Shown one piece after another: positions 12,301 to 31,278 of a stretch of 64,000 nucleotides of DNA (positions are counted from its first letter, which is position 1; every line of letters begins with the position of its first letter). The notes below the pieces were generated by a model. That model saw only the letters and a program-made list of their open reading frames with translations. It did not search any database and was not told the origin of the DNA. The translations under genes and the position numbers were made by a program. Source of the stretch: Magnetococcales bacterium. Lineage in GTDB: Bacteria > Pseudomonadota > Magnetococcia > Magnetococcales > Magnetaquicoccaceae. The DNA lies in NCBI GenBank assembly GCA_015231915.1, contig JADGAR010000002.1:1-64000 (forward strand), in the 5' to 3' direction.

Positions 12301-13134
12301 ATCGGCTTCCGTCGCGCGCAAGGCGCGGAATTGTTCAACTTCCTCATGCAGCGTCACATCTTTCCGGAAAAGGGGATCTACCGCACGGAACCCTACCTGC
12401 GGGTATTGATGGAGTGGCCCTCCGCCCATCACCCGTTCGTCGCCACCTTCCGCGCCCTGGAACTGGGCGCCATCCGCTTTCAGCCTGAACCATTCCTCAC
12501 GGTGGTGACCCAATCCCCCATCGCCTGCCTCAACCAGGAGAAACAGGGCATCAAGGAGTTCACCCACCAACTCGACGCCTATCGCGCCGGTCTGGAGATC
12601 GCCACCTCCCTGGCCATGAGCGAGGCCGGCATGACCGATTTCAACCCGGACAACCGCATCCAGGTGCTGGATTCGATCAACGATTTCCTGGCGCGGCGCA
12701 TCCAGGTGGCCGCCAATATCGCCCTGGCCAATCACGATTTCATTCAGGCCGGCACCCTGCTCAAACGGGTGCTGCTCTGGTCCAAGAGCGACGACATCCG
12801 CGCGCGCATCCGGCACATGGAACCGGAGGTGGTCACCGGTGCGGCCTATCAGGCGGTGCGGGAGCGGTTCGCCCTCCTCGGCCCGGCCAAGCGCTGCCTG
12901 CTGTGCGACATCTCCAACCCCGATGTGGTGCGTGACGGATTGGCCCATCTGGCCCCGGACATGCCGGTGACGGAATGCGACCTCGCCGGCGCCCTCGCCG
13001 ATCCGGAACGGGAAGCGTGCCTGATGCTCACGGAAAACGAACCGTCCCGCGCCGCCCTGCTGGCATCCGGCCTCGCCCCGGGACGGGTGATGCTGATCGC
13101 CGATCTGTTGCGCATCTTCCGGATCACCGGCTGA
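9355..13134 (+). CDS. TPR - O-GlcNAc transferase-like (SPINDLY/GT41) - GT2 glycosyltransferase fusion
   Basis: 1,259 residues. Residues about 20-360 are roughly ten TPR units (for example AEFVRKAIAIDPNQPLYYNN). Residues 430-800 match the catalytic part of the O-GlcNAc transferase/SPINDLY family: YLSCDFLNHATS carries the conserved His, FSNFNQTYKITP the conserved Lys, and LDTYPVASHTTASDSLW plus GETFVSRVAGSLL the sugar-nucleotide site. An Ala/Pro-rich linker (about 815-838) leads to a family-2 glycosyltransferase domain from about 840 (SICIPTFNRQ, VSDDASCD, LLSDDNRLL) and a C-terminal helical part. By family knowledge the TPR/GT41 part glycosylates Ser/Thr or Asn of proteins; the GT2 part could extend the glycan. 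The neighbouring Thr-rich giant protein is the natural candidate substrate (inference). The last 212 codons are duplicated at 15213. Confidence 0.92.
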   Translation: MKSGKPPVRTTPQRTDQERSLLQQALQMHQAGQLQEAETLYRRLLEERPNHQDGLNLLGYLLYQRGEKEQGAEFVRKAIAIDPNQPLYYNNLGIIVQNMGQLEESVTLYEKALAINPNYHAAHSNLGTVLQNLGRTEEALERHRRALELQPEFFEAHCNLGNLLCELGRMEEAIAAYQKALDIQPDYVTALHNLGYVMQKLSRLDEALPPLRKALEIKPDYLEAYNTMGNVFQEMGRFTDALASYQQALDINPNYHEAICNMGNVLCDQGRLDESIACHKRALAIKPDLHESYTHMANALQLQGNLPEAILSYRKALEIKPGDETALENLGVACNAIGDLPGAIDCNRRLLAKKDDNPNIHVNLINLLRQSCDWQDIPALFDRMMTLFASGDKLVNPFVFLTLDTTPEQQKRSGAIYMRKKYPVPASLVHLHRYDPKPQRIKIGYLSCDFLNHATSILMAELIELHDRERFEIRIYSYSDNDGREMRQRISAASDAFIDILHLDHAAAARKIAEDGVHILVELKGFTRGARLEISALRPAPIQVNWLGYPGSMGAPHIDYILADPFIIPHGAEPGYSEQVVRLPHCYQPNDRERFWPEPGAPRSAYGLPEQGLVFSNFNQTYKITPEIFAAWMTVLRQVPESCLWLLESNPLVAANLAKEIAAHGIAQERVIFAPKLPVSEHLARYHLVDLVLDTYPVASHTTASDSLWMGCPLLTLAGETFVSRVAGSLLTTVGLPELITRSLEEYTALAIELGKNPPRLRELRERLGANRLSCPLFDTPRFTRHLEAAFEGMWQRHEAGLPPQGFDVTPLPADAAIPAPARPAPRATPAPDATAEPNGKILLSICIPTFNRQALLAQTLDHLSWTRDAPGAIEIIVSDDASCDATQRVAREQGERFPHFRLIRQPRTLGAVKNGLAALHQARGRYCLLLSDDNRLLPGPLMAEIAFLEQHRDIIASHAPWRYVNDVTSTDMGLFNALDEAIGFRRAQGAELFNFLMQRHIFPEKGIYRTEPYLRVLMEWPSAHHPFVATFRALELGAIRFQPEPFLTVVTQSPIACLNQEKQGIKEFTHQLDAYRAGLEIATSLAMSEAGMTDFNPDNRIQVLDSINDFLARRIQVAANIALANHDFIQAGTLLKRVLLWSKSDDIRARIRHMEPEVVTGAAYQAVRERFALLGPAKRCLLCDISNPDVVRDGLAHLAPDMPVTECDLAGALADPEREACLMLTENEPSRAALLASGLAPGRVMLIADLLRIFRITG

Positions 13135-14875: not shown

Positions 14876-15067
14876 ATGACCATATTGACGAGCAGAACAT
14901 TCAGTGGGCGCAGGTTCAGTTATCGAACAGCCGATAGGGGGCAAAGGCATCAAATCATTCTCGAACACAAAAATTTCCTTGCCCTCCGGGAGGGGTCCAT
15001 ATATGTCCCCAGTTTAATTTATAGCCATAAGGGAAATAGGTATAGTGTCCCCAGATTTCAAGTGTAA
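14876..15067 (+). pseudogene. Phd/YefM-like antitoxin remnant
   Basis: A very strong ribosome site (GGGAGGAGG, 7 bp from the ATG) starts MTILTSRTFS, similar to the MTxLTSREFN start of Phd/YefM antitoxins. Later ADRGQRHQIILEHKNFLAL recalls the ITDRG...VLL..xxYxxL segment, with the middle apparently deleted. The frame then runs into copies of the dispersed repeat and ends inside them. A PIN toxin C-terminus survives at 16290, so this may be the 5' end of a split Phd-VapC locus. Confidence 0.35.
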
Positions 15068-15211
15068 GGGAAATAGGTATAGTGTCCCCAGATTTCAAGC
15101 AAGTGTCCCCAGATTTCAAGCACAAGTGTAAGGGAAATAGGTATAGTGTCCCCAGATTTCAATGCACAAGCACAAGTGTAAGGGAAATAGGTATAGTGTC
15201 CCCAGATTTCA
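15028..15211 (+). repeat. Array of four dispersed-repeat copies (GGTATAGTGTCCCC type)
   Basis: Copies of taagggaaataggtatag followed by tgtccccagatttc start at 15028, 15065, 15129 and 15179, with a partial copy at 15100. Short spacers such as aagcacaagtg recur between them. The last copy abuts the 642-bp duplicated glycosyltransferase fragment with no spacer. Variants with tgtcaccggattt occur at 17019-17253, inverted ones at 17982-18142. I suspect a REP-like family moved by a transposase in trans; no such transposase is in the window. Confidence 0.8.
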
Positions 15212-15212
15212 C

Positions 15213-15854
15213 CACGGTGGTGACCCAATCCCCCATCGCCTGCCTCAACCAGGAGAAACAGGGCATCAAGGAGTTCACCCACCAACTCGACGCCTATCGC
15301 GCCGGTCTGGAGATCGCCACCTCCCTGGCCATGAGCGAGGCCGGCATGACCGATTTCAACCCGGACAACCGCATCCAGGTGCTGGATTCGATCAACGATT
15401 TCCTGGCGCGGCGCATCCAGGTGGCCGCCAATATCGCCCTGGCCAATCACGATTTCATTCAGGCCGGCACCCTGCTCAAACGGGTGCTGCTCTGGTCCAA
15501 GAGCGACGACATCCGCGCGCGCATCCGGCACATGGAACCGGAGGTGGTCACCGGTGCGGCCTATCAGGCGGTGCGGGAGCGGTTCGCCCTCCTCGGCCCG
15601 GCCAAGCGCTGCCTGCTGTGCGACATCTCCAACCCCGATGTGGTGCGTGACGGATTGGCCCATCTGGCCCCGGACATGCCGGTGACGGAATGCGACCTCG
15701 CCGGCGCCCTCGCCGATCCGGAACGGGAAGCGTGCCTGATGCTCACGGAAAACGAACCGTCCCGCGCCGCCCTGCTGGCATCCGGCCTCGCCCCGGGACG
15801 GGTGATGCTGATCGCCGATCTGTTGCGCATCTTCCGGATCACCGGCTGAGACCT
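15213..15854 (+). pseudogene. Duplicated 3' fragment of the TPR-GT41-GT2 gene
   Basis: Same 642 bp as 12498-13139, including the stop codon and eight bases beyond it. It lacks a start of its own; the frame is entered only through the upstream repeat array, so it is a non-functional fragment. Its left junction is fused to a dispersed-repeat copy and its right junction to sequence leading into an IS66 remnant. The absence of visible differences points to a recent copy, gene conversion, or an assembly join. Confidence 0.9.
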
Positions 15855-16994: not shown

Positions 16995-17253
16995 GGCATG
17001 GTGTCCCCCTATTTTCTGATAAGGGAAATAGGTATGGTGTCACCGGATTTACGTGTCACCGGATTTACGGGCGTGATAAGGGAAATAGGTATGGTGTCAC
17101 CGGATTTACGGGCGAGGTATGGTGTCACCGGATTTACGGGCGATTCTAGCCATGAGATCATCATATCAGATTATGGCCATAAGGGAAATAGGTATGGTGT
17201 CACCAGATTTTTGCTGGCTATAAGGGAAATAGGTATGGTGTCACCAGATTTTT
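16995..17253 (+). repeat. Dispersed-repeat array, GGTATGGTGTCACC variant
   Basis: A divergent unit (catggtgtccccctatttt) at 16998 is followed by full copies of ataagggaaataggtatgg-tgtcacc starting near 17019, 17075, 17180 and 17220. Partial copies lie at 17053 and 17115, with a gggcg spacer. The array overlaps the 3' end of the low-GC gene at 17218. Inverted copies on the other side of that gene (17982-18142) make an inverted-repeat bracket. Confidence 0.8.
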
Positions 17254-17981: not shown

Positions 17982-18142
17982 GAAATCGGGGAATACCATA
18001 CTAGTTAAATTTATAGCCATAAGAGAAATGGATATGGCTTTCCTGAAATCGGGGGAAATCCGGGGACACCATACCTATTCCGGGGGGAAAATCCGGGGAC
18101 ACCATACCTATTCCGTAAATCGGTGGACACCCGCCTAATTCC
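17982..18142 (-). repeat. Dispersed-repeat array, inverted orientation
   Basis: Read on the minus strand this is the same family as at 15028 and 17019. Clear copies (aaatccggggacaccatacc then tattcc) lie at 18054-18080 and 18089-18116; a diverged one (aaatcggtggacacccgcc) ends at 18142. A degraded pair lies at 17982-18034, where ccataagagaaatggatatg even reads in plus orientation. Confidence 0.75.
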
Positions 18143-19499: not shown

Positions 19500-20570
19500 C
19501 TACGCCACAGGTTTCCCCAAATATCCGGCAAACACCTCCATGAAACGCCGCATCTCCGGCAAGGGACCCAGGGTCAGACGAAAGGTCCGCGTGATGGCAG
19601 GGGCCACCATGGGACGCACCAGAATCCCGTTCGCTTTCATGAATTCCACCACACCATCCCGGTCGTCCGGCTCGATCAGCATGAAATTGGCAGCGGCGGG
19701 ATAAAATTTCACCCCGGCCTCCTGCAACGAACGCTCGATAAACGGTTTGCCCTCCTCCATCACCTCCCGGACATACCCTTTCCACAACTCCGGATGGTCC
19801 AACTGCGCACTGGCCACGGCCACGGCGCAGGCGTTCACATCAAACGGGCCGCGCACCTTGTACAACTCCCGAATCAACTCCGGACGCGCGATCACATAAC
19901 CCAAACGCAAACCCGCCATGGCAAACGCCTTGGAAAAGGTCCGAATCAGGATCAGATTGGGATAACGGGCCAGCCAATCCAGACAACTCACCCCGGTGAA
20001 CTCACAATAGGCCTCATCCAAAATAACCGGCAAACCGGGATGACGCATCAAAACGGCCTCGATCACCTCCAACGGCACCACCGAACCGGTGGGATTGTTG
20101 GGGTTGATCAGGACGATCAAACGGGTCGTCTCGTCAATCGCGGACAAGAACGCCTCGGCGGGAAACGTCATGTCGGCATGAAACGGCACCCCTTGCACCT
20201 CGGCCCCGATCACCCGCGCGACGTGAGAAAAAATCGGAAACTCCGGTTGCGCCACCACCATCCCGTCGCCAGGATTCAAATAGGCCCGCAGGACGATTTC
20301 AATCCCCTGATCCGAACCGTTGGTGACAATCAGGTTCTCCTCGGCACACCCCACATGCGCAGCCAGACGCGGCAGGAACGCCTGATACTCCGGATAACGG
20401 GAAGCGGCCCCGCTCGCCCAGAAACGCTCCAATACCGGACGAACCTCTTCCGGCAAGGCACGGGTGTTCTCGTTGAGATCCAAACGCAAATATTGGGTGC
20501 GATCCAGGCCGGTCCACGGCGGGGCATAGGCCGACATGGCGCGAATGTTGGCACGAACAAGCGGAGTCAT
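19500..20570 (-). CDS. hisC: Histidinol-phosphate aminotransferase-like PLP enzyme
   Basis: 356 residues from the ATG at 20568-20570 (GAGGA about 9 bp before). Fold-type I aminotransferase with family marks: LDLNENTRALP, TNGSDQGIEI, INPNNPTGS, LDEAYCEF and the PLP-binding Lys in RTFSKAFAMAGLRLGY, plus the C-terminal Arg motif TFRLTLG. HisC converts imidazole-acetol phosphate to histidinol phosphate, but relatives act on other amino acids and phosphonates. It follows the HAD/IGPD-like fusion gene by 22 bp, so the two are likely co-transcribed; this echoes the HisB-HisC pairing of histidine operons. Whether it is the housekeeping HisC is unknown. Confidence 0.85.
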   Translation of the reverse strand: MTPLVRANIRAMSAYAPPWTGLDRTQYLRLDLNENTRALPEEVRPVLERFWASGAASRYPEYQAFLPRLAAHVGCAEENLIVTNGSDQGIEIVLRAYLNPGDGMVVAQPEFPIFSHVARVIGAEVQGVPFHADMTFPAEAFLSAIDETTRLIVLINPNNPTGSVVPLEVIEAVLMRHPGLPVILDEAYCEFTGVSCLDWLARYPNLILIRTFSKAFAMAGLRLGYVIARPELIRELYKVRGPFDVNACAVAVASAQLDHPELWKGYVREVMEEGKPFIERSLQEAGVKFYPAAANFMLIEPDDRDGVVEFMKANGILVRPMVAPAITRTFRLTLGPLPEMRRFMEVFAGYLGKPVA

Positions 20571-20592
20571 CAAAAACAATCCTCAATAAAAT

Positions 20593-22527
20593 CTATAATA
20601 ACGTTGCCTTGACCCCGGGCGGCATCCCCTTGCGTGCGGGGTTGATGGCGAAGGTCTCCTGCAACGCCATGCCCAAATTCCGGAAAATCAAGGGCCAGCC
20701 CGTGTCCGGGTCCGGAATCTCCGGCAGATGGATCACCAGCGAAGCGGCCATGCCCCCGGCCAGACCGTCCAGAAAATCGTCCAGGTCCTCGGAACGGATG
20801 CCGTGCAAGACATCCTGGCCCACCAGAAACCGTTTGCGCAGATGCTCGCGCCGATCGTTCAACGGGACGATGGAGAGAAATTTCCGCCCCTCCACGCTCA
20901 CCCCCACCCGCACCGGGGAGTCGGTCAGGTCGTCGGGATGGCGGATGCTGCTCCCGGCCCCGTTCACCCCGGTCTCCTCCATGCGCAGCATGAGAATCTC
21001 CAACAGCGCCCGGCCCAGCAGCAGTCCGGTATCCTCCAGCACCACATGGCTGGAACTCAAAGCCAGGGCGCGGCACTCCACCTGCAACGAAAATCCCGCT
21101 TCGTCGGCCAAGGGTTGCAGAAGATCCGGCAGGCTCCCCACACGGATGGAGTCCGCGACATCGAAGACGAAACGACTGGGGATCTGCCGGGAAAAATCCA
21201 CGGTCACCGTCAAAGCGCTCTCTGCGGTGACCCGCACCGCCCGGCAACGGATCAGGCTTTTTTCCTCGATCCGCAGGCGTCCCGCATGGGGCGGCGCAGG
21301 GGGGGGCAGAGGCGCGCCGGGCAGCGCCAGAGGATCCACCACCCGGCCCAGGACGATGCCCAAGGTGCGGAAGATCCCCTCCCAGGCGTGATGGGGATCC
21401 TCGGCGGAACAGGGATGCACCCGAATGCCGGCCTGCATGCCCTGTGCGATGCCGGTCAGAAGATCCCACAGCGGACGACCGGAATCGGCCTGTTCGCAGC
21501 GCAAGCCCAAAAACCACTCCATGTCCAGGTTGCGGCCATGAATCAACTCGGCCCCAGGTTGGGGGGCGGTGAAATCCAGCAAAATCTCGGCGCTGCCGTC
21601 ATCGATCATCCCCAGCGCGGCGGCCCGTTCCTGATGGCGCGGCATGGCCCCGAGCGCCTCCCCCAGCATGCGGCCCAGTTCCAGCCACTGGTCGTTGTTC
21701 CACGCCAGATGGATCCCCATGCCCAACCGCCAGGCGATATGCTCCACCATGTGACTGACGAAATCGTTGGGGGTGACGATCCGCTTGTCCCGCAGCGCGC
21801 CCGGCAGGAATTCGATCCGCAGCGGGGTGAAGGCGGTATAGACCTGGCGGGCCATGCCGCTGCCGGCCAGAATCTCCGCAGCGGTGCCGCCGGTGGCGAC
21901 GGCGATGGCATGACAACCGGCGCGAAATCCCGCTTCCAGCCCCAACAGCGAATCCTCCACCACCAGGCACGCCTCCGGGGCCACCCCCAATTGACGCGCG
22001 GCATGCAGATAGCAGTCCGGGGCCGGTTTCTTGCGGAACCCTTCGATGTCGTTGCCCACGATCAGGTCGAAGGCCGCGTGGAGCCCGGAACGCTGCAAAA
22101 TGGTATGCACGTCGCGGGTCAGGTTGTTGGAGACCACGGCCAGGGCGAGACCTCCGGCGCGGGCCTCGGCGAGGATGGCGGCAATGCCGGGCAGCACCTC
22201 GAAGGCGGTGCCCACCCGCTGTTCCTCGTAGGTGGCCAGCATCCCCTCCTGCTCGGCGGCGTCGCAGGTCACCTGGAACTGTTCGTCCAGATAACGAAAA
22301 ATCCGTTGCCAGAAGGCCGGCGGATGCAGGGCGAAAATGGAACGGATGAACTCCTCCGGAATCCGGATCTCCTCTCCGAACCGCTCGGCCACCAGTTGAT
22401 TGCAGATGCGGATATCCAGACCCAGGGAGTCGATCAGCACGCCGTCCATGTCCCACAGGATGGCCTTGCAGCCCGGAGGCAGCAGCAGACATTGGGCGAG
22501 GCGTTGCGGGGGGGCGTTCGTGGGCAT
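20593..22527 (-). CDS. HAD phosphatase fused to two degenerate IGPD (HisB)-like domains
   Basis: 644 residues from the ATG at 22525-22527 (AGGAAG before it). Residues 1-220 are a beta-phosphoglucomutase-like HAD domain with all motifs (WDMDGVLIDS, VVSNNLT, KKPAPDCY, VVEDSLLGLEAG). Two imidazoleglycerol-phosphate dehydratase-like domains follow. The first (about 235-390) has HMVEHIAWRLG and DPHHAWEGIFRTLG but lacks the first H-H-x-x-E. The second (about 400-640) has SSHVVLEDTGLLLGRAL and DPDTGWPLIFRNLG. Most metal ligands of IGPD are lost, so dehydratase activity is doubtful. E. coli HisB is also phosphatase-IGPD, but with a different HAD subfamily and one IGPD. It lies between an HD-GYP regulator (17 bp upstream) and HisC. 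Confidence 0.8.
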   Translation of the reverse strand: MPTNAPPQRLAQCLLLPPGCKAILWDMDGVLIDSLGLDIRICNQLVAERFGEEIRIPEEFIRSIFALHPPAFWQRIFRYLDEQFQVTCDAAEQEGMLATYEEQRVGTAFEVLPGIAAILAEARAGGLALAVVSNNLTRDVHTILQRSGLHAAFDLIVGNDIEGFRKKPAPDCYLHAARQLGVAPEACLVVEDSLLGLEAGFRAGCHAIAVATGGTAAEILAGSGMARQVYTAFTPLRIEFLPGALRDKRIVTPNDFVSHMVEHIAWRLGMGIHLAWNNDQWLELGRMLGEALGAMPRHQERAAALGMIDDGSAEILLDFTAPQPGAELIHGRNLDMEWFLGLRCEQADSGRPLWDLLTGIAQGMQAGIRVHPCSAEDPHHAWEGIFRTLGIVLGRVVDPLALPGAPLPPPAPPHAGRLRIEEKSLIRCRAVRVTAESALTVTVDFSRQIPSRFVFDVADSIRVGSLPDLLQPLADEAGFSLQVECRALALSSSHVVLEDTGLLLGRALLEILMLRMEETGVNGAGSSIRHPDDLTDSPVRVGVSVEGRKFLSIVPLNDRREHLRKRFLVGQDVLHGIRSEDLDDFLDGLAGGMAASLVIHLPEIPDPDTGWPLIFRNLGMALQETFAINPARKGMPPGVKATLL

Positions 22528-22544: not shown

Positions 22545-23600
22545 TCAGTCGCAAATGGATCGTTTGATCGTCAAAATGGTCTCCATCCCTGCCATGAAGG
22601 CATCCACCACCTGGGGGTCGAAATGGGCGCCCCGCTCTCCGACGATCAGGGCCACCGCCTGCTCCACCGGCCAGGCATCCTTGTAGGGGCGTCGGGAGGT
22701 CAGGGCGTCGAAGACATCCGCCACCGCGCAGATGCGGCTTTCGATGGGGATCTCCTCGCGGCTCAGCCCGGCAGGATAGCCGCCGCCGTTCCATTTTTCG
22801 TGGTGGGTCAGGGCGATCCGTTGGGCGGTGACCAGGGGTTCGTCGTGATACCCGGCCAGGATGTTGCCGCCGATGGTGGTATGGGTCTTGATGACCGAGA
22901 ACTCTTCCGGGGTCAGCCGTCCGGGCTTGAGCAGGATCGCGTCGGGAACGCCGATCTTGCCCACGTCGTGCATCGGGGTGGCGTTGAGGATCACGTCGCA
23001 GTGGTCGTCCCGCAGGCCCATTTGTTGGGCGATGCAGGCGGCGAACTGGCCCATGCGGATCACGTGCTGTCCGGTTTCGTTGTCCCGGTATTCGGCGGCG
23101 CGGCCCAGACAGCGGATCACCTCGAGGCGGGTTTCGTGCAACTGACGGGTCCGCTCGATGATCTTTTCCTCCATGCGCTTGTAAAGCAGGCGCACCGTCA
23201 GCATGTTGCGGATGCGCGACAACACCTCCGAGGGATTGAAGGGCTTGTTGAGAAAATCCTGCGCCCCGTGGGCCAGGGCTTCCAGGCGGGTGGACTCTTC
23301 GGTATTGGCGGTGATGACCAGAATGGGCAGATAGGCGGCCCGTTCGCACCGTTCCAGGATTTTCATCACTTCGATGCCGCTCAGGTGGGGCATTTCCAGG
23401 TCCAGCAGCATCAGGTCGAACCGTTGCGCCCGCCAGGCTTGCTCCACCTCGCGCGGGTCCTCCAGGGTGACGACGTTGACGTAGCCGTGCTGACGCAGCA
23501 GCCCCTTGAGCACGATCAGATTCAGCTTCTGATCATCGACGATCAGGATGCGGGCCTGGTTGCGTTCGGAATCCAGGCTGGAATCGATCGGATTGGACAT
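22545..23600 (-). CDS. Response regulator with HD-GYP cyclic-di-GMP phosphodiesterase domain
   Basis: 351 residues. A receiver domain (VDDQKLN, phospho-acceptor Asp in LMLLDLEMPHLSG, Lys in LNKPFNPSE) is joined by a helical linker to an HD-GYP domain with HDVGKIGVPDAIL and HHEKWNGGGYPAGL, so catalytic residues are complete. It should hydrolyse c-di-GMP when phosphorylated by an unidentified kinase. The gene is the first of a probable three-gene minus-strand unit with the HAD/IGPD-like and HisC-like genes and is divergent from the glycan cluster at 23707. Confidence 0.93.
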   Translation of the reverse strand: MSNPIDSSLDSERNQARILIVDDQKLNLIVLKGLLRQHGYVNVVTLEDPREVEQAWRAQRFDLMLLDLEMPHLSGIEVMKILERCERAAYLPILVITANTEESTRLEALAHGAQDFLNKPFNPSEVLSRIRNMLTVRLLYKRMEEKIIERTRQLHETRLEVIRCLGRAAEYRDNETGQHVIRMGQFAACIAQQMGLRDDHCDVILNATPMHDVGKIGVPDAILLKPGRLTPEEFSVIKTHTTIGGNILAGYHDEPLVTAQRIALTHHEKWNGGGYPAGLSREEIPIESRICAVADVFDALTSRRPYKDAWPVEQAVALIVGERGAHFDPQVVDAFMAGMETILTIKRSICD

Positions 23601-29976: not shown

Positions 29977-31278
29977 TCAGATGTCCCGTTTCAGGATGGC
30001 ATTGGCATGGGACGGAAACCCTTCATATTGTGCAAAGCGCAGGGCGGTATCCTTGATATCGTTGTACCCTTGTTGTGTCAACCAACCGAGGGAGGAGCGC
30101 TTGAGAAAATCGAACACGGTGACGCAGGAGTAGGTCTTGGCAAAGCCACCGGTGGGCAGGATGGCGTTGACCCCCAGGGAGAAATTGCCGATGGTGATCG
30201 GGGTGTGGTGGCCCAGCAGGATCTCTCCGGCGTTGGTGATGCGGTTGGCCACGAAGAGGGGATCGGCGGTCATCACCTCCAGGTGTTCCGGGGCGAAGTC
30301 GTTGGTGAAGGCGATGGAGTCCTCCAGGCTGCGGGTGAGGACGATGCCGCCGTAGTTGCTCAGGACATGGGTGCAGAAACTCCTGCGCGGCTCCGGCAAA
30401 TCGGCGATCAGGGCGGGCAGCCGTTCCCGCACCGCCAGGGCCAGTTCCCGGTGATGGGTGACCAGCATGGCCGTGGAGTCGGTGCCGTGTTCCGCCTCGA
30501 TGAGCAGGTCGATGGCGGCGTTGTGGGGATTGGCGGTCTCGTCGCACAGGATGATCGATTCGCTGGGTCCAGCCGGGGCGCCCCCGTCGATCTTGCTGGT
30601 GAGCAGCCGCTTGGCCGCCGCGACATAGCTGCTGCCAGGCCCGCTGGTCTTGACCACCTTGGGCACGGTTTCGGTGCCGTAGGCCATGGCCGCGATGGCC
30701 TGGGCGCCGCCGGTCTTGTAGACCTCGCGGATGCCGCACAGCTCGGCGGCGAACAGGGTGGCGTCGTCCACCCCGCCGCCAGGGGCCGGCGGGGTGCAGA
30801 CGATGATGCGCCCCACCCCGGCGATCACCGCCGGCAGGCCCAGCATCAGCATCACCGACGGAAACGATCCCTTGCCGCGCGGGACATAGAGGCCCACCGA
30901 GGGGATCGGCGAGATCTTCTCCCCTGCCATGATCCCAGGCTGAATCTCCTTGAACCACATCGCCTCGGGCATTTGTGCCTCGTGAAACGCGCGGATGTTG
31001 GCAGCCGATTTGCGGATCACTTCGCAGACATCGGCGGGCAGGTTGCGGCGCGCCTGGGCGAACTCCTCTTCGCTGGCCTTCAATTGGGAGATGTCCATGG
31101 TCACTTTGTCGAATTTCGCGTTGAAATCGACCAGCGCCGCGTCTCCTTCGTTCTTGACCCGTTCGATGATGGGCATCACCACCGGCAGCAGGTTTTCGAT
31201 ATCGGTTTCGGAACGGGTCAACAGATTGCGCACCTGAACGCCATCCATTTCATCCAGGACAAACAAATTGATAGTCAT
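29977..31278 (-). CDS. hisD: Histidinol dehydrogenase
   Basis: 433 residues, normal length. Catalyses the last two oxidations of histidine synthesis, histidinol to histidine, with NAD and zinc. Family motifs are all present: VGLYVPRGKGSFPS, KTGGAQAIAAMAYGTETVPK, GPGSSYVAAAKRLL, GGAPAGPSES, EAEHGTDSTAM and FAPEHLEVM, where the Glu-His pair is catalytic. No other canonical his gene is adjacent; the HisC-like gene is about 9 kb away. It is divergent from the chemoreceptor at 31476. Confidence 0.95.
   Translation of the reverse strand: MTINLFVLDEMDGVQVRNLLTRSETDIENLLPVVMPIIERVKNEGDAALVDFNAKFDKVTMDISQLKASEEEFAQARRNLPADVCEVIRKSAANIRAFHEAQMPEAMWFKEIQPGIMAGEKISPIPSVGLYVPRGKGSFPSVMLMLGLPAVIAGVGRIIVCTPPAPGGGVDDATLFAAELCGIREVYKTGGAQAIAAMAYGTETVPKVVKTSGPGSSYVAAAKRLLTSKIDGGAPAGPSESIILCDETANPHNAAIDLLIEAEHGTDSTAMLVTHHRELALAVRERLPALIADLPEPRRSFCTHVLSNYGGIVLTRSLEDSIAFTNDFAPEHLEVMTADPLFVANRITNAGEILLGHHTPITIGNFSLGVNAILPTGGFAKTYSCVTVFDFLKRSSLGWLTQQGYNDIKDTALRFAQYEGFPSHANAILKRDI

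Follow-up and report, generated by a model that had tools for sequence, protein, structure and literature searches.

The nearest described system in function and layout is the bifunctional HisB of Escherichia coli (HisNB). In this protein, encoded in the his operon, an N-terminal phosphatase of the haloacid dehalogenase (HAD) class, of the DDDD/HAD-IIIA type, is joined to one complete imidazoleglycerol-phosphate dehydratase (IGPD) domain (accessible part of PMC1963479). The monofunctional IGPDs (M. tuberculosis HisB, plant HISN5, yeast His3) form a homomeric 24-mer with 24 equal sites. In the studied enzymes each site holds two Mn ions with ligands from two subunits; in Medicago numbering H141, H142, E145 and H213 come from one subunit and H115, H237, H238 and E241 from the other, according to the available portion of PMC10978614. 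The subunit split for Mn2 is partly inferred from H238* and the chain labels in the accessible text of PMC4509728, because the subunit asterisks are partly lost in the text of PMC10978614. All the 535 IGPD sequences of PMC7284861 carry the HHxxE motif in both domain halves. Here, a fusion gene of a Magnetococcales bacterium was analysed, which lies in a stretch of 64,000 nucleotides (the window; GenBank assembly GCA_015231915.1, contig JADGAR010000002.1, positions 1 to 64,000). Its product consists of a HAD phosphatase domain followed by two IGPD-like domains, and its gene adjoins hisC. The fusion is probably the organism's own HisB, an alternative bifunctional IGP dehydratase and histidinol-phosphatase that evolved independently. 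This reading is based on the architecture, the folds, the complementary invariant ligands, the mutual exclusion with ordinary IGPD and the his-gene context.

Domain architecture and folds

The Pfam search of the fusion protein revealed HAD_2 (E 8.9e-26, residues 23-210) and IGPD PF00475 (E 3.7e-12) over two stretches. The full-length AlphaFold model had a mean confidence (pLDDT) of 89.5 and a predicted template modelling score (pTM) of 0.88. Domain 1, absent from the structure-match rows of the full-length model, was modelled separately (pLDDT 93.0, pTM 0.90), and both models were built from 34 aligned sequences each. Domain 2 of the full model matched M. tuberculosis HisB 6khh (Z 22.1, root mean square deviation (rmsd) 2.3, 182 aligned), and domain 1 in its own model matched S. 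aureus IGPD 2ae8 (Z 18.2, rmsd 2.6, 156 aligned), with the first unrelated fold only at Z 6.1. On these models both domains have the IGPD fold, the fold of the monofunctional enzymes, at roughly 12-25% identity to solved IGPDs. The original prediction of a HAD phosphatase with two IGPD-like domains in a layout like bifunctional HisB is in accordance with these results, and the lack of an IGPD fold, which it had named as contrary evidence, was not borne out. Chance or artefact as the origin of the match was ruled out, as the IGPD part aligns with that of 33 relatives, 31 of which also share the HAD domain. Locus L012 is truncated in a 35-row alignment (window included) and was left out of the 34-row alignment. 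On its contig (G009, C223; L012, L079, L080) a frame change splits the fusion gene, either by sequencing error or by decay.

The best NCBIfam subfamily for the HAD domain was the beta-phosphoglucomutase (beta-PGM) family, as had been predicted, at 90 bits and below the cut-off of that family. The HAD-IIIA score of 31.9 bits lies under the cut-off of 44.6, so the domain falls outside the DDDD/HAD-IIIA type of E. coli HisNB. The structure matches were beta-PGM/CbbY/MtlD-type phosphatases (best Z 23.7, rmsd 2.6, 211 aligned). HAD-IA/beta-PGM-like hydrolases have the catalytic motifs DxD, S/T, K and ED, and D26/D28, S133, K167 and E191/D192 presumably fill these roles in the fusion; these six residues are identical in 33/33 HAD-bearing rows.

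Metal-ligand positions of the two IGPD domains

The ligand positions are distributed unequally over the two domains. Domain 1 holds exactly the H115/H237/H238/E241 set, as H259, H379, H380 and E383, along with H263, R267 and R387 at the phosphate-binding positions (Q51, H55 and K177 in A. thaliana IGPD). Domain 2 holds the H141/H142/E145/H213 set minus one, as H494, E498 and D584, with V495 replacing H142; it also has R548 in an SGR motif and the C-loop lysine K640. At the D584/H213 position, ordinary IGPDs have Glu in 26 of the 27 compared. Only the second HHxxE motif is present in domain 1, and domain 2 has an altered first motif (HVVLE) and no second one, hence neither of the two diverged domains has both motifs, unlike the complete domain of HisNB.

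When the domains are paired, seven of the eight ligand positions are filled, one His/Glu position by Asp, and the eighth is Val, while the mirror site, with domain 1 as the first and domain 2 as the second partner, keeps none of the eight. The kept ligands, the phosphate-pocket residues, R548 and the C-loop lysine are identical in 34/34 rows. Judged from the aligned residues, the metal ligands are split between the pair and not lost, and the simplest reading would be a single composite site that is live in each chain. The claim that both modules lack most metal ligands thus does not hold for the pair, and it holds for the single domains only in that each keeps one half-site. Once the domains are pooled, seven of the eight di-metal ligand positions, the phosphate pocket and the C-loop lysine agree with those of the monofunctional enzymes, whereas the predicted assembly differs from 24 equal sites in being an unequal pair in which one site is live and the other dead.

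Distribution and histidine gene context

The whole-genome search revealed the fusion as the only PF00475 match in the window's genome (G000, 100% complete). Of 41 Magnetococcales genomes, 26 had an ordinary IGPD (E 1.1e-62 or better). All of these were among the 32 non-carriers, the other six of which had no IGPD match at all; none was among the nine carriers, which all belong to the window's genus. Two members of the genus without an IGPD match may reflect gaps, since the contig of G002 ends 150 bases past hisD, too early to include a fusion expected some way beyond it, and G006 is 57% complete. Two other Magnetococcales genomes without a match are 93% and 99% complete (G023 and G024); assembly gaps, auxotrophy or a further replacement could account for them.

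Scanning 84,980 species genomes with short patterns from this single protein yielded 39 loci, 34 of them with both IGPD domains; with patterns this narrow, the family may be more widespread than seen. Judged by their record titles, the 34 loci belong to Pseudomonadota (19: seven Magnetococcales, the remainder mostly large sulfur bacteria), Thermodesulfobacteriota (11, including cable bacteria) and Actinomycetota (4). From the 39 loci, 36 genomes were searched. Ordinary IGPD was found in none of the 32 with the HAD fusion; seven of these are apparently the same genomes as the Magnetococcales genus members, so the two sets overlap. Two genomes carried a HAD-less form together with ordinary IGPD (E 1e-58 or better), and two archaea had an ordinary single-domain IGPD. 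In the order of Paraconexibacter (101 genomes), ordinary IGPD occurred in 94, a weak match in long frames in three and no match in four, that is in 0/3 carriers against 94/98 non-carriers, with no genome having both. The actinobacterial carriers were G073 and, as inferred from weak match and frame length, G515 and G530; Paraconexibacter antarcticus is among the carriers. A fusion profile (E 1e-30) over 398 genomes of the window's phylum, a draw with the large sulfur bacteria of the locus scan outside it, gave nine matches, all in the window's genus.

These distributions bear on the original proposal of a side pathway or repurposed scaffold; in the form considered here, histidine would be imported or a true hisB missed by the assembly. 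The degenerate motifs fit such a role, as do the two HAD-less proteins (L030, L033), which share the two IGPD domains and the same invariant residues with the fusion and coexist with ordinary hisB. For the HAD-bearing form the side pathway was rejected, as ordinary IGPD is absent from every carrier in all the three genome sets. Gaps in all the carriers are implausible, the L034 record being titled a complete genome, and the invariant ligands, which complement each other, point to a single working site of the IGPD type. In the window's genome, moreover, the fusion is the only IGPD, beside the only hisD and the only strong hisC. Accordingly this explanation is very improbable for the fusion, and the repurposed scaffold fits just the HAD-less relatives, of which at least one lies in a transporter cluster. 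The HAD-less gene of L030 is located among ABC-transporter genes (solute-binding, permease, ATPase) and genes of the short-chain dehydrogenase/reductase (SDR) and HisD-like kinds; a true repurposing, perhaps catabolic, is possible there. In Electronema, a protein like E. coli HisB (29%, E 6e-19; L032:2894-3319, minus strand) is encoded 7 kb away from the fusion. Since the fusion gave the sole PF00475 match of that genome, this protein is probably a phosphatase of the HisB-N/GmhB type.

All the histidine-pathway proteins looked for in the window's genome were present, namely HisG, adjacent HisA and HisF, HisI, a single HisD and a single strong HisC. Across the genomes compared, the HisA/HisF family was found in 38/38 (in one of them only at E 4e-5), HisD in 31/32 (one a fragment), HisI in 31/35 and HisG in 28/38, the genomes without HisG being nine HAD-fusion carriers outside the genus and G006. 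In seven Thermodesulfobacteriota carriers (G060, G061, G062, G063, G071, G072, G074) the His_biosynth match lies inside HisHF-like frames of about 530-570 amino acids (aa), and G060, G062, G063 and G071 have an additional distant HisA/HisF-family match (E 1e-24 to 1e-27). Such HisHF-like frames are reported for delta-proteobacteria in the accessible part of PMC1963479.

The gene order in L011, from a metagenome-assembled genome (MAG), is hisD (fragment), fusion, hisC, hisH, hisA, hisF and hisI, with overlaps or gaps of less than 50 bases. The fusion occupies the hisB slot of this his operon, as in the E. coli arrangement. The window itself has hisC as the only his gene adjoining the fusion. 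Overall, hisC or hisD lies within 200 bases of the fusion in 17/34 loci and anywhere in the fetched flanks in 23/34; neither was present in the flanks of the other 11, some of which are short.

The HisD tree of 36 sequences placed 18 carrier HisD from three phyla on one side of a branch with support 100/97. On the other side stood the rows with ordinary hisB, namely 14 Magnetococcales, E. coli and one archaeon, and the HAD-less pair adjoined the carriers. The root is unsure because long branches join in the tree. The grouping of the carriers' HisD across three phyla suggests, at the level of sequence, that the fusion moved between phyla as a module with its own hisC and hisD.

The coordinates of all the features are summarized in Table 1. 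The neighbouring aminotransferase had been described as HisC-like, which agrees with its best NCBIfam match, hisC TIGR01141, at 267.6 bits (below the cut-off of 276.55); the second-best protein of the genome reached 114 bits, and the suggested check for a canonical hisB or hisC elsewhere therefore returned neither another IGPD nor another strong hisC. The stop of the HD-GYP gene is followed by 17 bases, the fusion gene, 13 bases and the hisC frame. The adjacency to the HD-GYP regulator, to which a coupling had been ascribed, is real, but it was found in 7/7 Magnetococcales loci and in 0/27 elsewhere, so this neighbour is local and outside the system. Elsewhere in the window, a 300-base segment within the 3' portion of a long TPR-like gene (12493-12792) recurs at 99% identity 2.7 kb downstream (15208-15507), behind a short-repeat array. 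Dispersed repeats around AAGGGAAATAGGTATGGTGTCACCAGATTT occur at 15004-15211, 16996-17253 and 18051-18131, where G+C is low (0.50 at 16-20 kb), and may be REP-like elements or transposon remnants.

Table 1. Positions of the fusion gene, its domains and motifs, neighbouring genes and HAD-less relatives (window positions unless a locus is named)
Feature	Position	Strand	Remark
Fusion gene (HAD phosphatase, IGPD-like domains 1 and 2)	20593..22527	-	644 aa, ATG start
HAD domain, residues 21-210	21898..22467	-	Pfam, structure match, invariant motifs
IGPD-like domain 1, residues 236-400	21328..21822	-	hhalign E 1.5e-7; structure match
IGPD-like domain 2, residues 424-644	20596..21258	-	hhalign E 4.2e-13; structure match
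Domain 1 H259..H263	21739..21753	-	H259 = H115 ligand; H263, R267 = Q51/H55 positions
Domain 1 DPHHAWE, residues 377-383	21379..21399	-	second HHxxE: H379, H380, E383
Domain 2 RxTxE, residues 432-436	21220..21234	-	E436 = E21 of A. thaliana IGPD2
Domain 2 SSHVVLED, residues 492-499	21031..21054	-	first-motif H494, E498; V495 for other His
Domain 2 D584	20776..20778	-	H213 ligand position
Domain 2 C-terminal GVKATL, residues 638-643	20599..20616	-	K640 aligned with C-loop Lys
hisC (histidinol-phosphate aminotransferase)	19500..20579	-	adjoining downstream; NCBIfam best match
Response regulator (receiver and HD-GYP domain)	22545..23600	-	upstream of fusion gene
hisD (histidinol dehydrogenase)	29977..31278	-	sole hisD in genome
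HAD-less IGPD-IGPD relative	L030:9995-11242		genome also with ordinary hisB
HAD-less IGPD-IGPD relative	L033:9989-11242		genome also with ordinary hisB

Proposed working of the fusion and its meaning

The catalysis, the metals, the assembly and the HAD substrate are what we infer from these observations. The two IGPD domains would act as specialised subunits within one chain, domain 1 giving H259, H379, H380, E383 and the basic phosphate pocket (H263, R267, R387), and domain 2 giving H494, E498, D584, R548 and the C-terminal lysine loop. Together they would form one di-metal IGP-dehydratase site, the mirror-image site having decayed. The N-terminal beta-PGM-type domain would serve as the histidinol-phosphate phosphatase (HolPase), so that the same two steps as in E. 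coli HisB are predicted. This E. coli-like working would have been reached by independent fusion and spread between phyla with hisC and hisD.

Several observations weigh against the fusion being a working HisB. E21 of A. thaliana IGPD2 is the proposed acid/base, and the E21Q mutant is inactive (available part of PMC4509728). In domain 1, the half expected to supply it because E21 belongs to the chain with H47/E173, this position is F233, as assigned from sequence register and structural range. The equivalent is kept in domain 2 only (E436), so the acid/base must sit differently from the studied IGPDs; within the assembly E436 might come to lie at the live site, or its part might be played by a different acid such as the invariant D309/D310. 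The ligand corresponding to Medicago H142 is Val in 34/34 rows, and no clear counterpart of D108 and R99 of the plant enzyme was found in domain 2. HisG was not found in 9/25 HAD-fusion carriers outside the genus, mostly MAGs, and as 6/32 Magnetococcales non-carriers also have no IGPD, absence alone is not decisive. Finally, the HisN survey gave no HolPase complement: HisN-like proteins occur in Magnetococcales carriers and non-carriers alike, and the difference in the actinobacterial order depends on a threshold chosen afterwards.

The missing acid/base of domain 1 and the one ligand short would also suit a dead or regulatory IGPD-like protein in histidine synthesis, with dehydration by an unrelated, not yet known enzyme. 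This is highly unlikely, as the seven ligand positions, the phosphate pocket and the C-loop lysine are kept in 34/34 rows and the L011 operon indicates no alternative enzyme.

For the HAD domain, the role of histidinol-phosphatase is probable by analogy, histidinol phosphate being proposed as substrate because of the fusion, the operon place and the E. coli precedent. The SerB-like HolPases, which we take to be of the HAD class, are unfused, and the HAD domain of the fusion is closest to beta-PGM/CbbY-type hydrolases. They resemble it as recruited HAD-type phosphatases outside the DDDD family, and in other organisms enzymes resembling phosphoserine phosphatase have taken over the HolPase step (PMC5764234, in its accessible part). 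It was also considered that the IGPD part is an ordinary dehydratase, with the HAD domain acting on another phosphate, for example in repair or detoxification, and an IMPase-like protein of the genome as HolPase. The HolPase families are highly varied (accessible parts of PMC5516325 and PMC5764234), the HAD subclass is beta-PGM-like and not that of E. coli HisB, and G000 has two HisN-like proteins below cut-off. Against this stand the fixed fusion with invariant HAD motifs in all the HAD-bearing rows of three phyla, and the L011 operon, where no other phosphatase gene is visible between the hisD fragment and hisI. The search with HisN (TIGR02067) gave no match above cut-off in the Magnetococcales or the actinobacterial set. 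HisN-like proteins were rarer in actinobacterial carriers (3/6) than in non-carriers (29/30, from 98), with Fisher p 0.010 at a 100-bit threshold set post hoc; these counts weakly favour a HolPase role of the fusion. A different HAD substrate is thus unlikely, though less so than the side pathway or the dead protein.

Returning to the fusion as an alternative HisB, it is moderately likely that bifunctional HisB evolved here a second time and independently, that this is the first IGPD to have its di-metal site split over two specialised, half-dead domains in a single chain and its acid/base provided in another way than in the studied IGPDs, and that a hisB-hisC-hisD module was transferred between Pseudomonadota, Thermodesulfobacteriota and Actinomycetota. 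The literature search, with most subscription papers beyond its reach, found no recognised description of a HAD-IGPD-IGPD fusion. If true, this would account for the absence of ordinary hisB in the Magnetococcales genus, the large sulfur bacteria, the cable bacteria and some Actinobacteria, and the fusion could provide the HolPase of the carriers, a frequent gap (PMC7311316). The fusion family tests the need for both half-sites in each IGPD subunit, and whether the chemistry depends on E21 or allows its replacement.

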